Shown here in pieces: positions 9,386-28,729 of a stretch of 44,512 nucleotides of DNA. The stretch's first letter is position 1. Every line of letters starts with the position of its first letter. A model generated the notes under the pieces. That model worked only from the letters and a program-made list of their open reading frames with translations, had not been told where the DNA came from and searched no databases. The DNA is from Pigoraptor vietnamica. Lineage: Eukaryota; Opisthokonta; Filasterea. The position numbers and the translations under genes are program-made. The DNA is taken from the NCBI GenBank assembly GCA_943704525.1, contig CALSCQ010003158.1, forward strand, positions 1-44,512, in the 5' to 3' direction.

Positions 9386-9744
9386 GTCTGCTCGGTTGAT
9401 GGTGTGTGAGAGACTTTCCTGTTTCAGCGGGTGTTCATGACATGAGCCTTAGAAGATAGAGCCGGAGAGATGGGGGAGAGCGTGTGTGTGTGTGCGGCCG
9501 GTGCGGCCAGTGAACGCAGGCCGCGGCGAAAGAAATAATCGAATTTTAGCTGACTGTCCAGACACACGTAATTTGTTTAATAATAGGTGCAAAATCTTCA
9601 CTCCACTGCAACCTGAAGCTTTCAGTGTAGAAAGGCTCGGCAGCAAGGCAACGACAAGCATGCGTGCTCCGTCAAAGGCGATTTGCGCAACGCAAAGACA
9701 GTAAACGATTTTGATGCGTATGGCTCGAGAGGTCAACGCCGGTT

Positions 9745-11410
9745 GCGCCCATGCTGCCGGCGATGAATGAGTCTCAGTGACAAGTCAGTTCTCAGGCCGG
9801 CGCCGGCGGGTTCTCCGTTGTCCGGCGCAAATGAGTTCTGCTGACTTCACTGTAAACTTACGCCCGCTGACTGCTGCTGACTTTTAATGCTGCAAATTTA
9901 CGCTGTAAAAGTTCTTGAGTGCTCGCGAGCCGTGCCTGGCATCGCTGACTCAGCAGAGGGAACGGCCAGTGCGCACCGGCGCACCGCTGTGCAAAGTCGC
10001 TCACGGCGCCGGGCTGGCCACTGACTCCAGCAGGCCTCGCGTTCGGCATAGGTTCTCACAATAGCGAGCCCGGCAGTCTCAGTGGCCCGTTTCCGCTGCG
10101 GAAGCACTGAAAGCACTGTTGTGGTAGAAAGCACTGTTGCGCCGTAGAAAGCACTGTTGCGGCCGGCAAAAGAATCGCCGTCCAGTCAAACTGACATTGA
10201 CAGCCATTGCCGAACTGGCTGCTGTTCGGGACGGTTTCTTTTTTTGTTGCCCGCCGTGTCCTCCCGGTAGTCGTACCCACACCGTCGCTCCCTTGTGCAC
10301 GCAGAACCGAGGGCTCCCGATTTGTGGTGGCGCATCAGTCGCGTCACGCTGCGAAGAAACTGACGCACACAGAAAGTTAACTAAAGACTGCAGGGACTGA
10401 ACACTAGATAAACAAGCGCTGCAGAATGGGAACAAGAGGCTGAGGAGGAAAGGCAGCGAGATGCAGTACTGCCGGTCCAGAAGCCGCCATGGCCGGTTGG
10501 AGCCCGGTCGCCGGCGTGCATGGAGTTTAGAGAGAACTGCCGGCGCCGTGGTCAGTGCCCCCTCCTCGACTGAGCCCACCTTACCGTGGGGCACGGCGTC
10601 AGCAAAGATGCGGGTAGCGGACGCATGCCGGCAGAAACACATCACGGACTGTGTCGCCGGCGACTGAACGAGCCGAGTGTCGCGCCGAATTGGAGAGACA
10701 TTCAAACGAATCAGAATACTTTAGGGCGCAGGCGTCCAAGAGCGGCGCTCCGTCACTCTGTACGTACGGCCACAAGCGTGGGTGAAAATCCTATGCCGTG
10801 AAACGATGATTGCGTTTTTTGTGCGTGTCAGTGCGCGTGCGTTTGGCACACATAGAGTGCCGCCTGTGATGGACGTACGACGCTGTGACAATGGGCGACA
10901 CACGTGCGCCAACTGATAGGGCACTGACAACCACACGCCGAAATGCCAACACCGGGGCAGGCCGGCCGGCTCCGTGAATTTGCCCGCCAGCCAGCCGAGT
11001 ATACTGAGAAAGAACCGCCCGGCTTTCCACTTCAGGCACTTCTTGCCCCCCCCCCCCCCCCCCCCCCCCCGCAGTCTCGCATGAAGAAAGAACGAACCGC
11101 TTTTCCATTTCTCTTCTTCACTTCTTCCCCATCCCTCCCCGCCCAACACCCCGCCGTGACCCGATGCAGCCGCGTCAGCGCCGGCCGGCATCAGCCAGTC
11201 GATCCAGTCAGCGGTGACTGCCGGCGCGGAATTCAGCTCTGCATCATCACCTCACCCGGCCACAGAATTGCCTTCCCCATCGAACAGCGCATGGTCGGGA
11301 TTTAAAGGTGCGGCGTGGGCACACTGCGCGCCTGCCGGCCGGAGTAAGGCTTAAATGGGTCGGCTCAGTAAAAAAGCCGGGGGGGCTAATAATACCGCCA
11401 GTGGAACTTA
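9745..11410. other. Non-coding block rich in CCGG and CAGT/ACTG words
   Basis: By eye about twenty CCGG-containing words (GCCGGC, GGCCGGCC, TGCCGGCG) and many CAGT, ACTG, CTGACT and TCAGT words crowd this stretch, while other gaps in the window show few. No frame has a recognisable domain. It includes a short triplicated word (AGAAAGCACTGTTG, 10107-10160) and a C run at 11046-11070. The texture is the same as in 21370-23380, where it arises by short insertions into a duplicated gene. I infer the same process here, but I found no parent copy of this block in the window. Confidence 0.55.
11046..11070. repeat. Poly-C run
   Basis: Twenty-five C in a row inside the word-biased non-coding block. 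Confidence 0.95.
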
Positions 11411-11465
11411 TGCATGACGTCACACCATGATGTCATGGTTCAGACAACACACACGCACTGGCACG

Positions 11466-11466
<1 letters not shown>

Positions 11467-11524
<58 letters not shown>

Positions 11525-11586
11525 CACTCACTCAGTCACTCACTCACTCACTCACTCATTCACTCATTCACTCACTCACACTCAAC
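11467..11586. repeat. (CA)n followed by (CTCA)n microsatellite
   Basis: About 54 bases of CA pass into about 60 bases of CTCA/TTCA tetranucleotides. The tract lies upstream of the RNA repair gene and marks the right edge of the word-biased block. Confidence 0.95.
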
Positions 11587-11746: not shown

Positions 11747-14700
11747 ATGGCAGACGCACACGACACACCGCCACAGGCGGAAAAGACGACAAGAACAAAC
11801 TCGCGCCCCGCAAAGTCCGGTGTGTAGAGTGCGTCGTTCACTTCGCGTGTGTGTGCGGATGTTGTGCGTACTTCTCATGCATCCGTCGTTACACTGCAGC
11901 TGTAGCACCCGGTGATCTCTACATTTATGCTCGCGGATACATTGGCCTGTACGGCCCAAGCGTCGAAGCGGCTGCGGAGGGAGTCGTCCAGGGAGTCCCT
12001 CCGTCTGCCGTGCAGCGCCTGCATGCCGCACGTGGCACAGAGGGGTCCGACGCGTCCGCCGCCACGGCCGCGACCGACCCGCGGTGGGCTCACCACGTGA
12101 CGTTCGTCTCCAAACAGGAGCTGCAGGGCATTGCGCTCGTCACCGGCGAAGGGAGGGACGCTGTGGCGCAGCGCGTACTTGATCTCGCGGCGGCAAATTG
12201 TCCCGCGGAGTTCGTTTCCCTCGGACTGGGATCCGTGAGCGACACGGCAGCCGGGTCATCCGCCTACTATGCCGTGCTAGCGTGGCCTGCCGCACGCTGC
12301 CTCCGCCGCGCATTGAACCTCCCCACGGCCGACATGCACGTGACCGTCGGATTTGTCAAGCGGGACGTTCACGACGTCGCGAAGGGCGCTGCGACGCTGG
12401 TGCGCGCCGCCGAGAGTGGCTGGGGCGAGCGTCTTCGCCATGTGTGCGTGGCTGTGGAGGGCGTCATGCGTGCAAAGGCTGACGGGTGCCACGACGCGGC
12501 GATTTCCGCAGCAACCGATGTGCTCGATGCGTGGGATACTGCAATGTCGGTTGAGAACGACCAATCGACCCCTCCGTTTGCGGCGAGGCTGCTTTCCATG
12601 CGGGCAACGGCGCTGGGGGCCGTCGGTGCTGCGGACAGATCGCTCGCCGACGCCGACCGTGCCATTGCTCTCGACGCGAACTGTGCGTCTGCGCACGCGG
12701 TGCGCGGCGCTGCGCTCTTGAAGTCTCGCATGTACGGCGAGGCACTGGCGGCATTCCGTGACGCGGAGCGTATCGCCAGCACAGAGAGGGAGGGACCGCG
12801 CGCAGTAAGCGCAACCGAGGCGGCGTTTGTCCGCGCGGCCATCGTTCGCTGCGAGGGAAAGCTGGCGGGCTCGGATGCGAATGCTAGCGGTCATGTGAAC
12901 GACTTCAACGGGGTCGCTTCCGCTCCTTCCACCGCCACGTGCGACCCTCGCCAGCGCGTGCTCGTGACGCTCGGCGACGGGACGGCGGTGAAGATGCCGC
13001 GCAACTTCAGCTGGGTCGTCCCCGGTTGTCTCGCGGGCGTCAGCATCCCCAAGCGGGCCGAGCAAATACGCGCGCTCGAGAGCGAGGGCGTCCGCCTCGT
13101 GGTCACGTGCTTCGATAACCCTCTCCCTCGCGAGTGGTTCGAGGGAACCCGCGTGCGCAACCACTTTATCCACGTCGAGAATTACGGCGCACCGACCATC
13201 GATGAGCTTCACGCGTACATGCGCGAGGTTGAGCGCGCCATCGCAGCGAACGGCGCCGTCGTTGCTCACTGTGGCGGCGGGAAGGGCCGCGCCGGCACAC
13301 TCCTTGCCGCGTACATGATCAAGCACGGGCTCGAGCGTCCCTCCGGCACGCACGCGTACAGGCAGGCAGACTGGGCGATTCGCACGCTCCGGGACATGCG
13401 GCCGGGCAGCGTCGAGTCGACCGAACAAGAGAACGCACTGCGCGCTTTCTCAGACTCGCTCTGGCGTCGCCTGGCCGAAGAAGCCACATCGGACACCGAT
13501 GAAAACGGCGCTGTGGAGGAGGGTGCGGACTCTTTACCGACTTCTGCGTCCGCGTCGCTGAAGGGCAAGTCGCGCGCAGTTGACGACGGAGAAGAGGCCT
13601 CGCAGTCCCAAGCACCCGCGTTTTTGCGGTATCCGTCAACCCCCCACCTACCGTTTTCGCCGGCGGAGCTGAAAGAGGACGACGTTCGATACAAGGGTGG
13701 CGTGGACATGTTCGCCGGCGTCGAGGTCGTTGTAACGGAGAAACTGGACGGCGGCAACTGCTGCCTGAAGGGCGGGGAGGTGTTTGCGCGCACGCACTCG
13801 AAGCCGGCATCGCATCCTTGGTTTGGGCCGACCAAAGCGCTGTACGCGCAGTTCGCGCACATGGCCGAGTGCGAGGGCGTCGCTCTGTTTGGGGAGAACA
13901 TGACGGCCGTTCACAGCATACGGTGGGTGTTTGAGGTGGCGGGTGTGGGCGTGGAACGTGTGAGGCCGCACTTGTGCCTTGGGAGTAGTGACACGCACCT
14001 TTCTCGAGTGCAGATACGGTGCCTTAACGTCACCGTTTTATCTATTTGCCGTAAGAAACGAATCGACAGGAAAATGGGCGTCGTGGGATGAGGTGGAGGT
14101 GAGTCGCACATACGCGATTTGCTTTACATGCATGCGCACGCACGCACACACGCACACACACGTACACGCACACACCAAATGAGTAGTGCGATATCATCTC
14201 ACAACCCAACCGTGCGCAGCGCATTGCGGCGGCCATTGGGGTCCCGACTGTCCCCGTCGTCTTTCGCGGGGTCTTTCACTCGGCGTCAGAGATACAGCAG
14301 CTCATGGAGAGCCGCGCCACGCAGCCGTCAGTGCTCGCCGGTGGCAGTGACACCACACCAGAGGGCTTTGTGCTTCGCCTGGCAGGGTCGTTCGAGGACG
14401 CCGCATTTGAGCGCTCCGTCGCAAAATTCGTGCGCCAGAACCACATTCAGACGGACTCAACGTGGGCGGCGCGTTGGGAGCGTGCAGAGATCGCCGGTCA
14501 GGGCAAAATTGCGCCCGTGGGTAACGCGATTGAAAAGGTGGGTGTGGTGGATACCCCCGGATTCCAACGGTCACATGTGTCGTTTTGTTGAGTGCATGTG
14601 CGTGGGTTTACACACACGTTTGCGACGCCACCGTCTCATCAGCCCATTGCGCGCAGGGAAAGGGTCGCGCGCAGCCTGCAGTGGCACCGCCCACGCCAGC

Positions 14701-15537: not shown

Positions 15538-15540
<3 letters not shown>

Positions 15541-15569
<29 letters not shown>

Positions 15570-15630
15570 CATTTCTGTGCGCGTGCATGTGTGTGTGTGT
15601 GTGTGCGCGTGTGTGTGTGCGTGCGTGAGG
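15541..15630. repeat. (GT)n microsatellite
   Basis: GT repeats with GTGCGC interruptions lie between the convergent 3' ends of the RNA repair gene and the multi-pass membrane protein gene. The rest of that 270-base gap shows nothing else. Confidence 0.9.
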
Positions 15631-17183: not shown

Positions 17184-17402
17184 ATGTCGGGACGGCGGCC
17201 TGCGTCGCCCTCTTCGAGCTCCGATGAGGCTGCGAGCGAATGGCCACTCGCGCGTCGCAACCGCTACGCCGACAGCAGCGAGAACGAGGACGAGTGCAGC
17301 GACGACGAGTTGGTTTTGGCGGCTGAAGGATCTCACGATCGGTACGTGCGTGCATGCGTGTGTGTGTGTGCGTGTGTGCGTGTGTGCGTGTGTGTGTGTG
17401 TG

Positions 17403-17443
<41 letters not shown>

Positions 17444-20330: not shown

Positions 20331-21365
20331 TTACACTTCCCACAACTGCCTCCAGTCACTGGCGTCGCCGAGCGTAGAGACGTCCGTTGTTGAAGTTCTC
20401 CCGAGGATGAGCGAGTGGACGCCGCCGAGTGTAGAGGCGTCGGACACTAAGCAGCCGACGAGGCTGAGCGTGTGGACGCCGCCGAGCGCAGAGACATCGC
20501 GAACGTTGCGGCACGCCGACAGCGAGAGCTTATGAACGCGGCCTAGCGCAGACACGTCGACCACGTTCGCACATCTCGCAAGAATAAGCGTATGAACGCC
20601 GCCGAGCGCCGAAACGTCGGACACCTCCCGGCACTCTCTGAGGATGAGCGTGTGGACGCGCCCGAGCGCGGAGACGTCGCGCACTTTGCAACACGCCGAC
20701 AGCGTGAGCTTGTGAACACCGCCGAGTGACGAGACGTCTACTACCCTTGCGCACCTCGCGAGGTTGAGCGTATGGACGGTGCCGAGTGCGGAAACGTCAA
20801 CGACCTCGAGACAGCTTTTAAGATTGAGCGTGTGCACGGTGCCGAGCGCGGAAACATCCCGAACACCGCGGCACCCGGTGAGTGTGAGCTTATGAACACG
20901 GCCAAGCGCCGAAACGTCCGACACACCCGCACACTTTGACAAATTGAGAGTGTGGACGCGACCGAGCATGGACACGTCGCGGACGTAATGACATTCGGCG
21001 AGAATGAGCTCGTGCACGCCGCCGAGCGAAGACACGTCCGACACGTCCGAGCGTCGGAGGTCCAGCGTGTGGACGTCGTGGAATACAGAGACGTAGTCGC
21101 ATTGGAACGCTCTCCCTACGCGCACGAGCACGCGATGGCGAGGGAGCGATGCCGTCAAGAGGTCGCGAAAGCCACTGTCTTCGTAGAACTTCAACAGGGA
21201 CGACTTTGCACGTAGCTTGTAGAGCCGGTCGCAACGAAACACACGGAGGAGGCGACTGCACGTGTGCGCGAGCGAACGCTTGTCGCGATGCGTGAGGTTC
21301 GGAGCGACGTGAAAGATGAAGGTCTCGTCTGGCAACGAGAGCAGCGAAAGCTTAAGGGAATCCAT
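20331..21365 (-). CDS. F-box-like protein with twelve DVSALG-type leucine-rich repeats
   Basis: A single uninterrupted exon of 344 residues. The N-terminus (LSLLSLPDETFIFHVAPNL, then DKRSLAHTCSRLLRVFRC) looks like an F-box helix bundle, the part that binds SKP1 in SCF ubiquitin ligases. From about residue 98 there are twelve repeats of about 20 residues, consensus VHTLxLxxCxxVxDVSALGx. The first and the last two are more divergent. Repeats alternate VHTLNL and VHKLTL types, as expected if pairs were duplicated. In F-box/LRR proteins the repeats form the substrate-binding arc. A truncated paralogue lies at 25485-25832 and a decayed one at 1925-2860. The gene is free of the CCGG/CAGT insertions that fill the DNA directly upstream of its start, which suggests it is still under selection. 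Confidence 0.82.
   Translation of the reverse strand: MDSLKLSLLSLPDETFIFHVAPNLTHRDKRSLAHTCSRLLRVFRCDRLYKLRAKSSLLKFYEDSGFRDLLTASLPRHRVLVRVGRAFQCDYVSVFHDVHTLDLRRSDVSDVSSLGGVHELILAECHYVRDVSMLGRVHTLNLSKCAGVSDVSALGRVHKLTLTGCRGVRDVSALGTVHTLNLKSCLEVVDVSALGTVHTLNLARCARVVDVSSLGGVHKLTLSACCKVRDVSALGRVHTLILRECREVSDVSALGGVHTLILARCANVVDVSALGRVHKLSLSACRNVRDVSALGGVHTLSLVGCLVSDASTLGGVHSLILGRTSTTDVSTLGDASDWRQLWEV
20395..21065. repeat. Tandem 60-base coding repeats
   Basis: About twelve 60-base units inside the F-box/LRR gene encode the 20-residue leucine-rich repeats. Neighbouring units differ at several positions, so the array is not a recent amplification. Confidence 0.85.
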
Positions 21366-21369
21366 CGCT

Positions 21370-23380
21370 CGCAGTCAGTTGACTGATGAAGCCGGCGAGA
21401 CACACACATAATCCCCCGCGACACAAGAATAGTCTTAGTGCAACAGAGAGAGGTACGCGCCGGCTCGGCTCGTTAAGATGGACGCGTCCACATCACTGAA
21501 CCATTGTTCTCGGCTCGGTTGCGGACGGCCGCCGCGGCGAGGTATCGCGAGCCGCCCGGCGTGCCGGCTAACCGAACTGACTGAGTTTAATTTGGAAGAC
21601 TGAGGCGGTGACCGACTGGCGCGGGCGTCTCAGTTTGATGGCAGGGAGAACGAATGCCGGGAAAAGGTCAGTGCGTATGTGTGTTGAAGACGGTAATGCA
21701 TGCTCTAAATACGACTACCAACTACACTGACGCGGCACTTACACCGGCGAAATTACGTAGCGGCTGCACCGGCCGGCTGCACCCTCTCGCCGTTCACAAC
21801 GCCGCCTGATCCGAGGGAGGCATAGAAAACGGCACCATCATACTTTTGTCAATGACTGTAACTGAACCACTTATGCTTCGCGCGCAGCCAAAGCCGAGTA
21901 TATTGCACCGCGGTGCCGCTTCGCGTGCCGGTCGACGGATTACCGGCTCCACGGCCGGCGGTACTGACGCCCCGGGCGCCGGCGGACTGACGACACGCAT
22001 GCCGGCCGCCGGCCGAGCCGACTGAACGCACCGGTCTCAGACGTCACCTCAGTCAGTCGACGCCAACCGCCTGTCCACATTCTAAGACTGATTCAGTTAC
22101 TGAGCTCGTCAGTTCAGTGTCCCTTGCCGCGATCGCTCGATCGTCTGACATTCGCCGCTCAGTACTAACATCGGCTTCACAGTGACGCACCGGCTGGGGG
22201 ACTGTCAATGAGCACGTATAGTACAGTAAGCCGCGTATTATTATGAACCAGTCTGATGAGATCATACCGTGCCTCAGACACCTCTCAGTTTAATCTGAGT
22301 GCCAGCACTGGCACGGTCGTTCGGGCACCGAAACGCCGACGCACTGTACTTGGAACCCTCCGGGCTTCGCATCCCCTTCAAACGTCGCCCAACGAGGCCG
22401 GGCCACGAGGCCAGTCTCGCCGGCACTGGGCAGTCGATCACTGGCAGTGCCGGCCGCACTTTGCAGCCGTACTGTACGACTGTTCGGCGGCGGGAGCGAG
22501 ACTGACTGACCGTGCTGTGGAGCCTCCTCCCACGACGCCCACGGCGGACAGTTCGGCGCAACCCGCGCTGGATCCCCCGGGGTCCGCGTCGGCTGCCAGT
22601 GGTCACTGCCGGTCCGCATCATTCAGTATAATTGTCAATGAACGGCCGGCGTTTACTACAGTAAGTAAACACAGTTCGCCGGGCGGGCGCGGAATCGCTG
22701 AGCACTTTGGCGGCATCAGGCCAAATAGCGGCGCCAGCCTCACCGGTCTCTGCCTTCTGACACGGCCGTCAGTGCTGATCCGTGAGCCGGCGTCAGCGTG
22801 GCCGGCTGTGACGCCGACCGTCACAATCAGCCGAATCATCGCCGTCGGTGACTGAGAAGTGCATTACTGAGATCGCACTGAGGTATGGCACGCGGCTGTG
22901 AATCTCAGATGGTCACAACCGGCACTGAACTGAATGGCGCCGGCACTGCCGCTCCGGTTGCCGCCGCGGGAGCCGTGAAAACTCCGTCCCAGCAAGGGCG
23001 CTATAAGCGCCCGCGGCGGTATTGTGTCTGGACGGATGCTGTCCGAGGGCTTTCACACTGGTCAAAGTTAACTATATAGCCCTCAATGCTTATAAGTAGA
23101 TTTGGGGTTGAAATTGTCTAAATACGTTACTTATTCACAGCCCTGTGACGAATAAAGGCTTCCACCTTCCATACTAAAATGATCATCCGAGTCTATTTTG
23201 CACTTTCCTGCCACGTGACTGGCTATGGCACTGCCTCGTCAGCGCCGCGCCCGCGTGACTGCACTCACTCTAATGGCAATTATGCGATTGCCGGCTCACT
23301 GGTTACAATTGCCAGAGAGTGGATTTCAGGACGGCGAGCCGAGTCCGGCAGTCCAACTGACAGGGCGACACGCCGGTGGC
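21370..23380. other. Insertion-riddled block rich in CCGG and CAGT/ACTG words
   Basis: This stretch runs from just upstream of the F-box/LRR start to the start of the TTL-family gene. From about 21565 to 22860 it is collinear with 26012-26830, but longer in every interval between shared words. The extra bases are dominated by CCGG and by CAGT/ACTG. Beyond 22900 the same texture continues to the TTL gene start, without a parent that I can see. A short frame at 22885-23079 has no supporting motif. Confidence 0.6.
21895..22860 (-). pseudogene. Insertion-scarred copy of the NTF2/SnoaL-like gene and its 3' flank
   Basis: Shared words occur in the same order as in the intact gene at 26384-26911. 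AGTATATTGCA is at 21897 and 26237, CGCTCGATCGT at 22134 and 26360, TAAGCCGCGTA at 22227 and 26442, TTCGGGCACCGAAAC at 22320 and 26495, and ACTTTGCA(A/G)CCGTAC at 22458 and 26601. From the first to the end of the last word the intact copy spans 379 bases and this one 576. The additions break every reading frame. Because the other copy encodes a sensible secreted protein, I read this as insertion here rather than loss there. Confidence 0.72.
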
Positions 23381-23384
23381 AAAG

Positions 23385-25412
23385 ATGCCGGCTTCACTCC
23401 GCTGGAAGCGAATCGCGAGATTCATCGTCCTTTCCGCTGTGGTCTCTCTGCTTCTATTTCAGTTTTTTCGCAGCAGACACGCGCCAGAGACTGCCAAGGG
23501 TCCTGGCGATCATAGTGTCACTGGCGCGGGGCAAGGCGCAGCGGCGGCAGGCAAAACCGCTCCGCAGAAACGGGACGTGGACGTCGCCGCGGGTGCGGGA
23601 TCGACGGCGGCGGTTGACCCTCGCAAGAGACCCGTCGTGCTCGTGCGCGGTGACCCCGCGTGGGCCAAAATGTATGGCCCGCGCTTCGGCCGCGCTGCAA
23701 GCACGGGGGGCCCGAACGCGCTGGACATTGTCTTCGACTGGCAACGCCCCAGCCTTTGGCCGCTCGAACGCGGCGCGAACCGCACCGTCGTGGGCATCAT
23801 CACCAAGTGCGTGTCTGCCGGCGATGACAGTTATGGCCACCAGCGGTGCATGCTCGCCAGCGACTACGCACGGCTGCCGCGCCACGTACGTGTCTCGGCG
23901 CTCCGGGGACTGTCGCCCGAGGTGCGCATAGGCAAACACCACTTGTGTGAGGTGTTCATGTCCGCCGTCGAGGGATTCGCGCCGTCCCACGTGGGCACTC
24001 CGCTGCCGCGCGAGTCCGTGCGTGACCTCGCGGACGCGCGCCAGTTTGCGTTCCCGTGCTATATCATGCCCCAGGAGCGCGAGAAGATGGCCCGCGTGGC
24101 GAGAGAGGCAAAAGGCGCGTGGCCCTTCACGCAGACGCAGCCGTGGATATTGAAAGCGGCGGCGATGCACAGTGGCCAGGGAATCCTGCCGGCCGACACG
24201 TATGCCCACATTCCCGATGGTAACGGCGTCGCCATGCCTCTCCTCCACCCGCCGTTCCTCGTCAACGGAGAAAAGACGGACATGCGAACGTACGTACTCA
24301 TCACGTCGATGACGCCGCTGCGCGCCTACGTCCACGACAAGGGGCTGATGCGACTGTCCGGCGACGCGTACAACCTCACCGCACCCGCCAGTTCGCTGCG
24401 GCAGACGCAAATGCTGACAAACGCGAAGGACAAGTACGCCATTCGCCCGAGCGAAGAGCTCAAGTGGACACTCGATCGACTGCGACAGTACATTGCGTCG
24501 GAGGGGTACGACGCCGACGCGGCGTTCTATCGCCTGAGGTCCGCCATCGGTCGCTTGCTCCTGTCATTCGAGGCTGCGCTGCACCGGCTGCCTGCGTTGC
24601 CGGACAACTCGCGCAGCTACGCACTGTTTGGGATGGACACCATTTTCAATGCGGACTTGGAGCCGAGGGTCATAGAGGTGCGTTTATCATCGGTTGCATG
24701 ATTGTGAGTGTGTGTGCATTTGCGTGTGCATGTGTCGCGTGCAGCGTGTTGCGTGTAACCGGCGCTGTGAAAGTCGCGATGCCGTGCTCTCCAGTGTGGC
24801 GCGAGAACCCCTCAGCACGACGGCCTTTGCAGGTGAACGCGAACTGTCGGATGGCATCCATGATTCCCATCGAAGAGGAGGTCATGGATTACATGGTGCA
24901 GGACCTCTTGCGCCTAGTTTACGGCGGCGACACGGACGAGTGCGTGCGAAACACACGACGGCGTCTCGTCTCCCTCGGCGTTGTGTTTGTCGGCGAGGAA
25001 GGCACGGCGCAGTGCGGGAAAGGCACTGATCGGGATTCGCTCTGCGTGGACAGCCAAGACCTCGAGCACTTGCAGCGCGGAGCGTACGTATCGTGCGGTG
25101 TAGAGCAGCGGGCTGTGCGTCACTCATAGTGCGCGCAACCGCGAGGACTTCACGTACGCAGTTGCCACGACCGAGTCTCACGCAGTGTGATCCTTCTCGA
25201 CCAGGTGCGAACGAGAGAGGTGTCGTCCAGATGGGGACCGGCCCTGCCTGTGGCGCTCCGCGTACCCGGCGCCCGACGGCGACAAGTTCGACGAGTTCGT
25301 GGAGCATCTCGCACGAAAACACGGCTCTGTTCCACGCACGACCTCCTGGCGCCTGCATGCGCTGGAAACGGAGTTGATGCGTGCGGAGGAGGAAGAGCGC
25401 AAGAAAAAATGA
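23385..25412 (+). CDS. Tubulin-tyrosine-ligase (TTL) family protein with N-terminal signal anchor
   Basis: Four exons (23385-24677, 24833-25083, 25130-25153, 25205-25412) close to 591 residues. ATG 23385 was chosen because MPASLRWKRIARFIVLSAVV gives a basic stretch followed by one hydrophobic helix; an ATG nine bases upstream is also in frame. TTL-domain marks are FTQTQPWILKAAAMHSGQGI, then HPPFLVNGEKTDMRTYVLIT, LRAYVHDKGLMRLSGDAYNL, and LFGMDTIFNADLEPRVIE spliced to VNANC, which carry the ATP-grasp D-x-R, K-G and metal-binding N-A-N positions. TTL-like enzymes ligate tyrosine, glutamate or glycine to proteins, usually tubulin. A type II membrane topology would put the enzyme in the secretory lumen, so tubulin may not be its substrate. 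The third exon is only 24 bases. The C-terminus is charged. Confidence 0.83.
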
Positions 25413-25484: not shown

Positions 25485-25832
25485 TTACCCTCCCGAAGAA
25501 CTGACGTCCGACGCGTCCGACTGTCTGAGGTCCAGCGTGTGGACGTCGTGGAATGCAGAGATTCGGTCGCATTGAAACGCTCTCCCTCCGCGTACGAGCA
25601 GGCGGTGGCGAGGGAGCGATGCCGTCACGAGGTCGCGAAAGCCGCTGTCCTCGTAGAATTTTAACAGAGTCGACTTCGCCCGTAGCTTGTAGAGCCAGTC
25701 GCAATGAAAAACGCGGAGAAACCGGCTGCACGTATGTGCGAGCGAACGCTTGTCGCGATGCTGAGGTTCGGAGCGACGTGAAACATGAACGTCAACGTCT
25801 GGCAACGAGAGCAGCGAAAGAGAATCCATCAC
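25485..25832 (-). pseudogene. Truncated copy of the F-box/LRR gene
   Basis: It is closely similar to the N-terminal third of the gene at 20331-21365 (about 85% of residues by eye over KRSLAHTCSRFLRVFHCDWL and onward). It ends after the first repeat (HTLDLRQSDASDVSSSGG); all later repeats are missing. A one-base difference near the start shifts the first 25 residues relative to the full gene. It sits 72 bases from the 3' end of the TTL-family gene. Confidence 0.75.
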
Positions 25833-26383
25833 TCGCAGTTAAACACTGCGACTCCGTGGCGTGCCGCTTGGGTGACGCACAGTTTGCCACGCATAAAATA
25901 ATCCGGCACCACAAGAACACATGTGTGGAATAGTGTCATGGTGGCCGCGACAAACGAATTTGAACGACGCGTCACATTATTCTGTCTCGTTGCCGACGCT
26001 TAGCCATCGAACGGCTAACCGAATTTGAAGCATTGTTTGTACCACACGACGCGAGCAAGGCGGGGAGGTTAAATGGAAAAAGTGGGTGTGTGTTGTAGAT
26101 GGTCTCGTGCATACATTCCCCCGTTACTCACTCTCATGTACGGCCGCACGCACACGGAACGTCGCGGCACCTGTGTCAAAGGGATCGACATAAAACAACA
26201 CGAACAGTACGAAACACCTACTTCGTGCGCAACGTAAGTATATTGCAGTGACTCTGCGAGTCGATTACCTCCACGGCACGCCGACACGCACGCACAACGC
26301 ACGCCGCCTTCGACGCCATACAATCCACATACGACATTAGCTCGATTGTCCCTTGCGACCGCTCGATCGTTCGCGTTACATCT
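25833..26383. other. Flank shared with the upstream duplication
   Basis: This stretch has no gene. It matches the insertion-riddled flank at 21366-22170 in shared words such as CGGCTAACCGAA (26012 and 21565). It is the unexpanded version. Confidence 0.6.
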
Positions 26384-26911
26384 TCACGCGCACGACGGGC
26401 AGCACTTCTGGAGCTGAAGAAGGAGCACCGACATGTCGTAATAAGCCGCGTACGACGAGATGAGATACGCCTCGTTGACGGCAAACGTCAGAACTTCGGG
26501 CACCGAAACGACGCACTTGGAACCCTTCGCATCCCCCTCGAACGTCGACCCAACGAGGCACACGAGGGCCACGCTGTTCTCGTTCACGATCATCGACTGG
26601 ACTTTGCAACCGTACGACTGCAGCTTCGGGAGCGAGAAGAGGCCCTCCCACGCCGCCTGGATAGATGCGCGCCCAGTGATGGCCGCGCTCGAGCCCACGG
26701 GGTCCGTCTGCTGCCCATCGTCCGCATAGAGAGCAGCCACCGCGCTGGCATTGAGCGCCTTTGTGGCGGCCAACCACGCGTGCACAGTAGCCGTCACCTT
26801 GTCGCGATCAAAATCTTGCGGCGATTTGAGCGCGGCGCCGTGCGGGCACATGGCACGCGCCGACGCAAGGACGCATGCCGCGAGAAGGAGGACGAACGCC
26901 GCGCGCGCCAT
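26384..26911 (-). CDS. Secreted NTF2/SnoaL-like protein
   Basis: An unspliced frame. ATG 26911 is chosen because MARAAFVLLLAACVLASARA is a clear signal peptide; an upstream in-frame ATG at 26965 would put 18 polar residues before it. The mature part (175 residues with the leader) reads TVHAWLAATKALNASAVAAL then YADDGQQTDPVGS, GRASIQAAWEGLF and VNENSVALVCLVGSTFEG. This is the helix-plus-curved-sheet pattern of SnoaL-like polyketide cyclase or ketosteroid-isomerase-like NTF2-fold proteins. Five cysteines in the mature part, three near the C-terminus (CCPSCA), suggest disulphides. Function is unknown. A scarred copy lies at 21895-22860. Confidence 0.75.
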   Translation of the reverse strand: MARAAFVLLLAACVLASARAMCPHGAALKSPQDFDRDKVTATVHAWLAATKALNASAVAALYADDGQQTDPVGSSAAITGRASIQAAWEGLFSLPKLQSYGCKVQSMIVNENSVALVCLVGSTFEGDAKGSKCVVSVPEVLTFAVNEAYLISSYAAYYDMSVLLLQLQKCCPSCA

Positions 26912-27668
26912 CTTGCTCTCGCGTAAAATGCGGCACAAATGAGAAGGGAAGCAGCACACACTCAAGACGAAATGGCTTTTCGAATCGAAATCGGGGGACA
27001 GCTTGCAGCGTCAGTAGATGACGTCGTTGCGGCACTGCCTGTTTATGGAAGTTGATACCATCCGTATTGCCATTTTTAATCCTATTTACATTCCTAATAT
27101 GGGTTTACGGTAACATTATTTCCATAAAAGGCATAGATACACGACGTCGTGTGTGTATTTTTTGGGACGGAAAAATTTGCCGGAGAGTGCCGTTCAAAAT
27201 TTTGAACGGGGTGTGTGTGTGCACTTGCTGAAAGCTGTGTATTGTGGTCACCCTCTTCCCTGTGTGCTTTGCTGCGCATACCTCGCACACACATACACAC
27301 ACACACACACACATATACGCACACACATAGCACACACGCCTGCTGCAATAGCTACAGCACAAACACATTTGTCGGCTCTTCTTTTCGCGCGCAACTCGGC
27401 GTACAGTGCGTTGGACTCCGCGAACGTTGGGTCTCGTGGTCCTTGTCTCCTCTTTCTTTCCTTCGACAAGCGACGAAAATGCCGCCGAGCACAAAGTGGA
27501 TCTGCCGATGACACACTTCTGAGGTCTTTCACTCTTCTCTCTCTCTCTCTCCACTGAGTCGATGGGGGTTTAACCTCTATGACTGTCACGAACTGAGGTC
27601 TCTCGCTCTCCACTTCTCTGCGTAACGGAGGCCGTGCGCTGTGGGCGCTGCCTGCGGTTTCGCAGAGG
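26912..27668. promoter_or_regulatory. Divergent intergenic region
   Basis: This 757-base region lies between divergent starts (NTF2-like -, RasGEF +). It contains an AT-rich segment near 27050-27130, a (CA)n tract at 27289-27335 and, at 27534-27600, a (CT)n run followed by GAGTCGATGG, one copy of a dispersed motif. Promoters of both genes are expected here. Confidence 0.45.

Positions 27669-28664: not shown

Positions 28665-28729
<65 letters not shown>

Follow-up and report, generated by a model that had tools for sequence, protein, structure and literature searches.

Several described processes add short tracts to DNA. Microsatellite slippage can lengthen repeats whatever their unit; the N-additions of Pol X family polymerases place a few bases at joints; and transposon excision leaves footprints, which for Tc1/mariner elements comprise a TA target and a constant 3-base core and for hAT elements include an 8-base target duplication. 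One account of hAT (Ac/Ds) footprints describes inverted repeats of the form X-N-X', centred on one base, with palindromic arms and a target duplication; the palindromic P-nucleotides have as their centre the complement of the base adjoining the element (PMC5873905). Pol theta end joining, as set out in PMC4912351, makes random, snap-back and in-trans additions, giving short inserts at DNA ends, and its in-cis templated extension gives complementary sequence.

The window studied here is a contig of 44,512 nucleotides from Pigoraptor vietnamica (C1304 of an assembly of 32.5 Mb and 1395 contigs, which was searched). It contains stretches, termed islands below, with many short inserts in which base i+2 tends to be the complement of base i. 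The few bases added at joints recall Pol X N-additions, and a Pol lambda homologue is encoded; we know of no report of such additions being complementary at offset two. Period-4 runs recall microsatellite slippage, but the repeat families that obey the offset-two rule lead the others and the bases complement their flank. Islands share short inserts and complementarity with Pol theta end joining, whereas their complementarity is found at offset two only and tracts copied from nearby are not above control, unlike the modes set out in that source (PMC4912351). X-N-X' triplets likewise recur as in the Ac/Ds footprints described in PMC5873905, yet clear palindromic arms are lacking. The original prediction held that no described process seeds CCGG and CAGT words in this way, and searches of an open-access library returned no description of one.

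A lengthened copy and its parent segment

Coordinates are collected in Table 1. The copy and its parent were aligned by pair HMM (21321-22960 against 25791-26960). The two segments are collinear, as had been proposed, with landmarks reproduced to within a few bases (for example 21567/26014 and 22320/26495), and the copy measures 1535 bases against 1079 in the parent. Under strict flanks, requiring at least 4 of 5 identical bases on either side of a gap, 36 gaps were copy-only (197 bases) and 8 parent-only (41 bases); looser flanks gave 89 and 32, respectively, in this one paralogue pair. Gaps therefore run both ways but mostly lengthen the copy, in agreement with the unequal distribution that had been anticipated. 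The 36 strict inserts are 1-8, 11, 17 or 20 bases long. All four insertions quoted in the original prediction were recovered, at 21944, 22344, 22359 and 22470.

Table 1 Features of the window, with positions counted from its first base.
Feature	Position	Strand	Remarks
Insertion island	~21366-23400	n/a	lag-2 complement 0.372 (21366-23384); thresholded segment 21351-23550
Swollen, decayed copy, part of larger island	21366-22900	n/a	counterpart of 25833-26911
Parent segment, unaffected	25833-26911	n/a	lag-2 complement 0.219
Parent ORF, 175 aa, open	26384-26911	-	SnoaL_2 match, E 5e-10 (Pfam scan)
Insertion CAGTCAG	22050-22056	n/a	offset-two rule obeyed by 8 of 9 triplets
Insertion GCC	22335-22337	n/a	placeable in 3 equivalent ways
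Insertion CTGTA	22344-22348	n/a	copy/parent alignment
Insertion TCCGGGC	22359-22365	n/a	copy/parent alignment
Insertion TACTG	22470-22474	n/a	alternative reading TA -> TACTGTA
LRR-repeat ORF, island border, spared	20331-21365	-	sub-threshold LRR match (Pfam scan)
LRR gene fragment, truncated, beside parent	25485-25823	-	one internal TAA
Tubulin-tyrosine-ligase-like ORF, other island border	23385-24701	+	PF03133, E 4.6e-28
Second, weaker island	~9600-11440	n/a	lag-2 complement 0.312 vs 0.252±0.010; words 68 vs 25.7 shuffled

The parent retains its open SnoaL_2 frame, while the ORF list holds no minus-strand ORF of at least 150 aa in the copy, making lengthening of the copy the likely direction of change. 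The anomaly is also confined to the copy, and the earlier choice of insertion over deletion is upheld. As to its extent, the block 21366-22900 holds, but the anomaly continues beyond it to ~23400-23550.

Against 300 dinucleotide shuffles per segment, CCGG, ACTG and CAGT together occur 78 times in the copy (22.0±4.3 shuffled, z 13.2), 10 times in the parent (12.8 shuffled) and 8 times in the neighbouring ORF at 20331-21350 (12.1 shuffled). The words thus exceed a shuffled background in the copy and not in the parent.

Two further sets of paralogues were considered as second test pairs and rejected: the island part of the tandem paralogues at L006 was not alignable, and the SnoaL paralogues gave a 19-residue match only. 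Separately, the SnoaL-like gene shares a 152-base stretch of its 3' end (26292-26443) with C1232:6017-6168 at 98% identity, a recent and isolated duplication.

The offset-two complement rule

A description by words alone was dropped in favour of a broader rule that includes the words as one case, measured as the fraction of positions i whose base is complemented by the base at i+2 (the lag-2 complement). This fraction is 0.378 in the copy against 0.257±0.012 when shuffled; outside islands it stands at 0.231, and six islands give 0.312, 0.372, 0.408, 0.378, 0.310 and 0.292. A larger set of 26.5 kb comprises 28 segments chosen by the rule itself; 24 of its source loci were picked by word pattern, and 8 of these 24 yielded no segment. 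The set therefore describes islands and gives no frequency. In this set the lag-2 complement stands at 1.453x expectation, with the remaining lags to 40 at 0.94-1.04x. For identity the values are 0.89 (lag 2) and 1.15 (lag 4), which a chained offset-two rule implies.

In five pooled islands the complement is preferred in 16 of 16 dinucleotide contexts, which count both strands and so amount to 8 independent ones; in GA and GT the preference is slight. When the three words were masked, all eight triplet classes remained above both coding and non-coding DNA outside islands in the rule-selected set. Per kb, islands contain fewer AATT-family words than the AT-rich non-coding set does (x0.39-0.58), and a rise is seen only in composition-corrected triplets. 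No codon phase of the lag-2 signal was found in the islands tested. In the weaker window island the lag-2 fraction is 0.232 once the three words are masked, and contexts made of A/T alone show no rise (0.187, n=300). The case for a general rule consequently depends on the stronger islands.

The leading tetranucleotide families at run lengths 4-6 are ACTG, CCGG and AATT, the very families in which base i+2 complements base i. AATT leaves the top list at longer runs, and at 8-10 bases AATC joins ACTG and CCGG (3-5 cases). Chance ACTG, CCGG and AATT seeds might have grown by tetranucleotide slippage, and period-4 runs such as ACTGACTG, together with a slight preference for even-length runs in the 26.5 kb set, are in keeping with this. 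It is nevertheless a very unlikely account: the lead of the rule-obeying families speaks against it, and slippage leaves the complementarity of the added bases to their flank unexplained.

The lengths of rule-obeying runs are informative. In weak islands isolated pairs number 579 against 617.6 expected, whereas runs of three (65 against 32.9), four (hexamers XYX'Y'XY, 51 against 9.6) and five (14 against 2.0) are all in excess; windows binned at 0.32-0.36 repeat the pattern, with 859 isolated pairs against 925.8 expected and 61 runs of four against 16.2. Enrichment of runs of four without that of isolated pairs disfavours single triplets from hairpins and favours extension over several bases. 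Unlike the hexamer excess, strict insert lengths show no peak at four, although nested insertions may mask one.

Selection could also concentrate short words. Islands would then be regulatory DNA rich in motifs such as TCAGT, GCCGGC and TGTCAATG, in which motif-making inserts were retained. Both window islands do sit upstream of gene starts, and ACTGA and GCCGGC are more frequent than even a second-order model predicts. The octamer TGTCAATG, which does not obey the offset-two rule, has 13 occurrences in the 26.5 kb of islands against 11 in the 258 kb sampled elsewhere. The copy, however, contains a decayed gene, the rule crosses insert edges, and the excess spans all eight triplet classes in the masked, rule-selected set, with tens of words per kb; we consider selection unlikely. 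Sites of TGTCAATG include 21847, 22203 and 22633 in the window and 943 and 1002 of locus L124; the excess of this octamer outside the rule also counts against the end-joining reading given below.

Inserted bases and their flanks

Triplets lying wholly within inserts obeyed the rule in 216 of 432 cases, compared with 209 of 768 lying wholly in matched sequence and a fraction of 0.216 in the parent. Restricting the count to strict events gave 128 of 269, against 0.266 with random inserts. The rule also continues across insert edges: its fraction there was 0.420 for the 33 events of at least 2 bases but 0.284 for inserts relocated to other sites, and none of 300 relocated sets reached the real value. 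Where placement was unambiguous, 23 of 44 pairs at edges obeyed the rule, as did 31 of 57 inside inserts.

Copies were simulated, four per model, and passed through the same alignment pipeline as the real one. At edges the rule fraction was 0.526-0.560 for flank-seeded inserts, 0.299-0.359 for unseeded rule-obeying inserts and 0.204-0.297 for random inserts, with the real copy at 0.415. Inner pairs gave 0.606-0.706, 0.533-0.647 and 0.184-0.303, respectively (real 0.562). The whole-copy signal at a growth of 1.35-1.41 was 0.375-0.412 when seeded and 0.321-0.326 when unseeded, and is 0.378 at 1.42 in reality. The real edge value falls between seeded and unseeded simulations, so that seeding is partial or blurred; in our reading the inserts depend on their flank, with fidelity imperfect or the alignment blurred.

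The models also separated by the growth at which a simulated copy attains the observed signal (the real growth is 1.42). Flank-seeded runs required 1.39 and steps of four, two and one bases 1.33, 1.40 and 1.52, as against 2.27 for unseeded four-base words and 5.05 for unseeded X-N-X'. With the parent as the start, the values were 1.34 for flank-seeded runs, 1.30 for the four-base step, 2.60 (range 1.31-6.00) for the two-base step, 2.17 for unseeded runs and 6.00, the simulation maximum, for unseeded words; the one-base step and unseeded X-N-X' belong only to the run not started from the parent. Unseeded models thus do poorly, and the values do not single out one size for the elementary step.

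Copying from the neighbourhood was assessed by the longest word shared within 60 bases, averaged over the 21 inserts of at least 4 bases. Means were 4.14 direct (3.93 control) and 3.81 inverted (3.96 control) for the parent flank, and 4.57 direct (4.68 control) and 4.86 inverted (4.42 control) for the copy flank. Tracts copied from up to 60 bases away were therefore not clearly above control in these 21 inserts. The CCGG/CAGT excess itself is confirmed, and with further islands in the window and on other contigs it is not local.

These data bear on the origin first proposed for the inserts, a scar-leaving mobile or repair process with CCGG and CAGT as its cores. Fixed cores of a mobile element find no support: the inserted bases depend on their flanks, which argues against them, further rule-obeying triplets are raised too, and strict insert lengths span 1-20. 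Of the two options, a repair process is the likelier. The accompanying claim of flanking microduplications stands in part. An excess exists but is weak, with 23 of 36 strict insertions sliding by at least 1 base against 16.6 expected for random inserts, and 9 sliding by at least 2 against ~6. The slide is 0 in 13 insertions, 1 in 14, 2 in 5, 3 in 3 and 4 in 1; with 4 as the longest among the 36, a target duplication of 8 bases is absent.

Excision scars of DNA transposons, whether hAT-like hairpin P-nucleotides or Tc1/mariner TA-CTG-TA, might still have accumulated in intergenic DNA. The hAT scars described in PMC5873905 are indeed inverted repeats around a single base, and two insertions can be matched to the Tc1/mariner form by eye, at 22470 (Table 1) and at 22224, where TACAGTA results. 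These two are the only ones of the 36 to resemble it, and 13 of the 36 are without any flanking duplication. No clear extension of palindromic arms was seen (0.243/0.241, 0.292/0.277, 0.268/0.258, 0.312/0.290 and 0.240/0.252). Together with the lack of isolated X-N-X' triplets in excess in weak islands where runs of four are enriched, and with the dependence of inserts on their flanks, this renders transposon scars quite unlikely.

The reading we consider best, with confidence about evenly divided for and against it, is end joining in non-coding DNA in which the added bases are complementary at offset two. Breaks and their joining are inferred. Non-coding stretches of ~0.4-2 kb would be broken and rejoined repeatedly, gaining a few bases each time. 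Before joining, a strand end would be extended such that each added base, far more often than by chance but not always, complements the base two positions back; an end ...XY would gain X', Y', X, Y, and the flank would decide whether fragments of (ACTG)n, (CCGG)n or (AATT)n result. An island would then represent many nested events, eroded by substitutions. In principle the rule would follow if a strand end met an identical partner, paired with it by the last base and gained one base at each encounter; no evidence for this scheme emerged.

The genome encodes a Pol lambda homologue (best chain 7m0e, E 1.4e-88), and a gene piece of a Pol theta homologue lies on C833 (8ef9, E 1.9e-58). Both are candidates for the synthesis, their presence proving no role. 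We know of no polymerase geometry that produces the offset-two rule. A more specific version of the end-joining reading, which we put forward tentatively, is that at broken ends the penultimate base of the same or an identical partner strand may dictate each added base, and that germline non-coding DNA carries offset-two self-complementary filler, swelling unconstrained DNA by ~40%. If real, this would be a rule of insert making unlike the palindromic, nearby-copied, mobile-element-scar and slippage kinds tested; it would suggest that a repair polymerase uses a templating geometry so far unrecognised, and would indicate one route by which intergenic DNA grows. As a one-line statistic, the lag-2 complement lends itself to scans of any genome.

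Extent of the islands and the neighbouring genes

Word counts per 500 bases show the second window island at 9500-11500 as well as islands on sampled contigs; within the former, 9651-10225 alone passed a stricter threshold. A composite pattern has 77 occurrences, and the same pattern reversed has 17. Islands occurred in 5 of 20 contig starts picked by number and occupied 6,100 of 192,500 bases, or 3.2%, a figure that uses contig starts alone. High lag-2 complement values are nearly absent from windows read as coding, 3.4% of 528 of which exceed 0.30 compared with 29% of 82 non-coding windows. At 400 bases, 1.3% of 2307 windows here have an observed/expected ratio above 1.45, as opposed to 0 of 7043 in 732 kb of viral DNA, a control itself selected by a related pattern.

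An artefact of assembly or amplification in hard-to-read stretches has some appeal, complementing without reversal being an odd operation for a cell and runs of N being present on the sampled contigs. Artefacts would not be expected to nearly spare windows read as coding, to leave neighbouring ORFs open, to recur under one rule on many contigs or to be missing from the viral control, and we hold this explanation to be improbable. The contigs C1015 and C868 were considered as haplotypes and set aside, only their first 264 bases being common within the first 6 kb; these (L107 1-264 and L108 1-264) are 96% identical, after which the contigs diverge.

As the copy at 21366-22900 covers a duplicated segment, the insertions might instead reflect a defence against duplicated DNA, akin to repeat-induced mutation but inserting bases. 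The island, however, extends past the duplicated part. Moreover, a DNA search of the genome, which strongly altered relatives could escape, returned for the islands at 9500-11440 and L015 2900-4900 a single 66-base match (81%) to one of them and otherwise no second copy. Such a defence seems highly improbable. A search for phage DNA resembling an island gave no match.

The ORF bordering the island on its left had been named F-box/LRR and described as free of insertions. In the Pfam scan the LRR match is sub-threshold and an F-box was not returned. Its word count is consistent with the second claim, but the pair HMM revealed one 6-base difference, an in-frame CTTAAG (21351-21356) near the start of the ORF that is missing from the fragment beside the parent. 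That fragment belongs to an 87% DNA match between 25504-25839 and 21034-21375. The LRR ORF family has at least 195 matches in the genome, a few of them with internal stops; viral relatives of the protein were sought and none confirmed.

On the other border, the tubulin-tyrosine-ligase-like ORF has a lag-2 complement of 0.260, equal to its shuffles, and a protein search returned one distant match (33% identity). An intron-like break is visible by eye in this gene. Elsewhere in the window, the ORF 12334-14091 combines a phosphatase domain (PTP-SAK, E 2.5e-39) with a downstream match to RNA ligase (E 3.7e-07). Actin-family genes are present in the assembly, and a 5.8S rRNA search gave 0 matches. 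Long GT/AC microsatellites are common outside islands (for example 1085-1220, 11460-11525, 15540-15625, 17350-17440 and 28665-28725).
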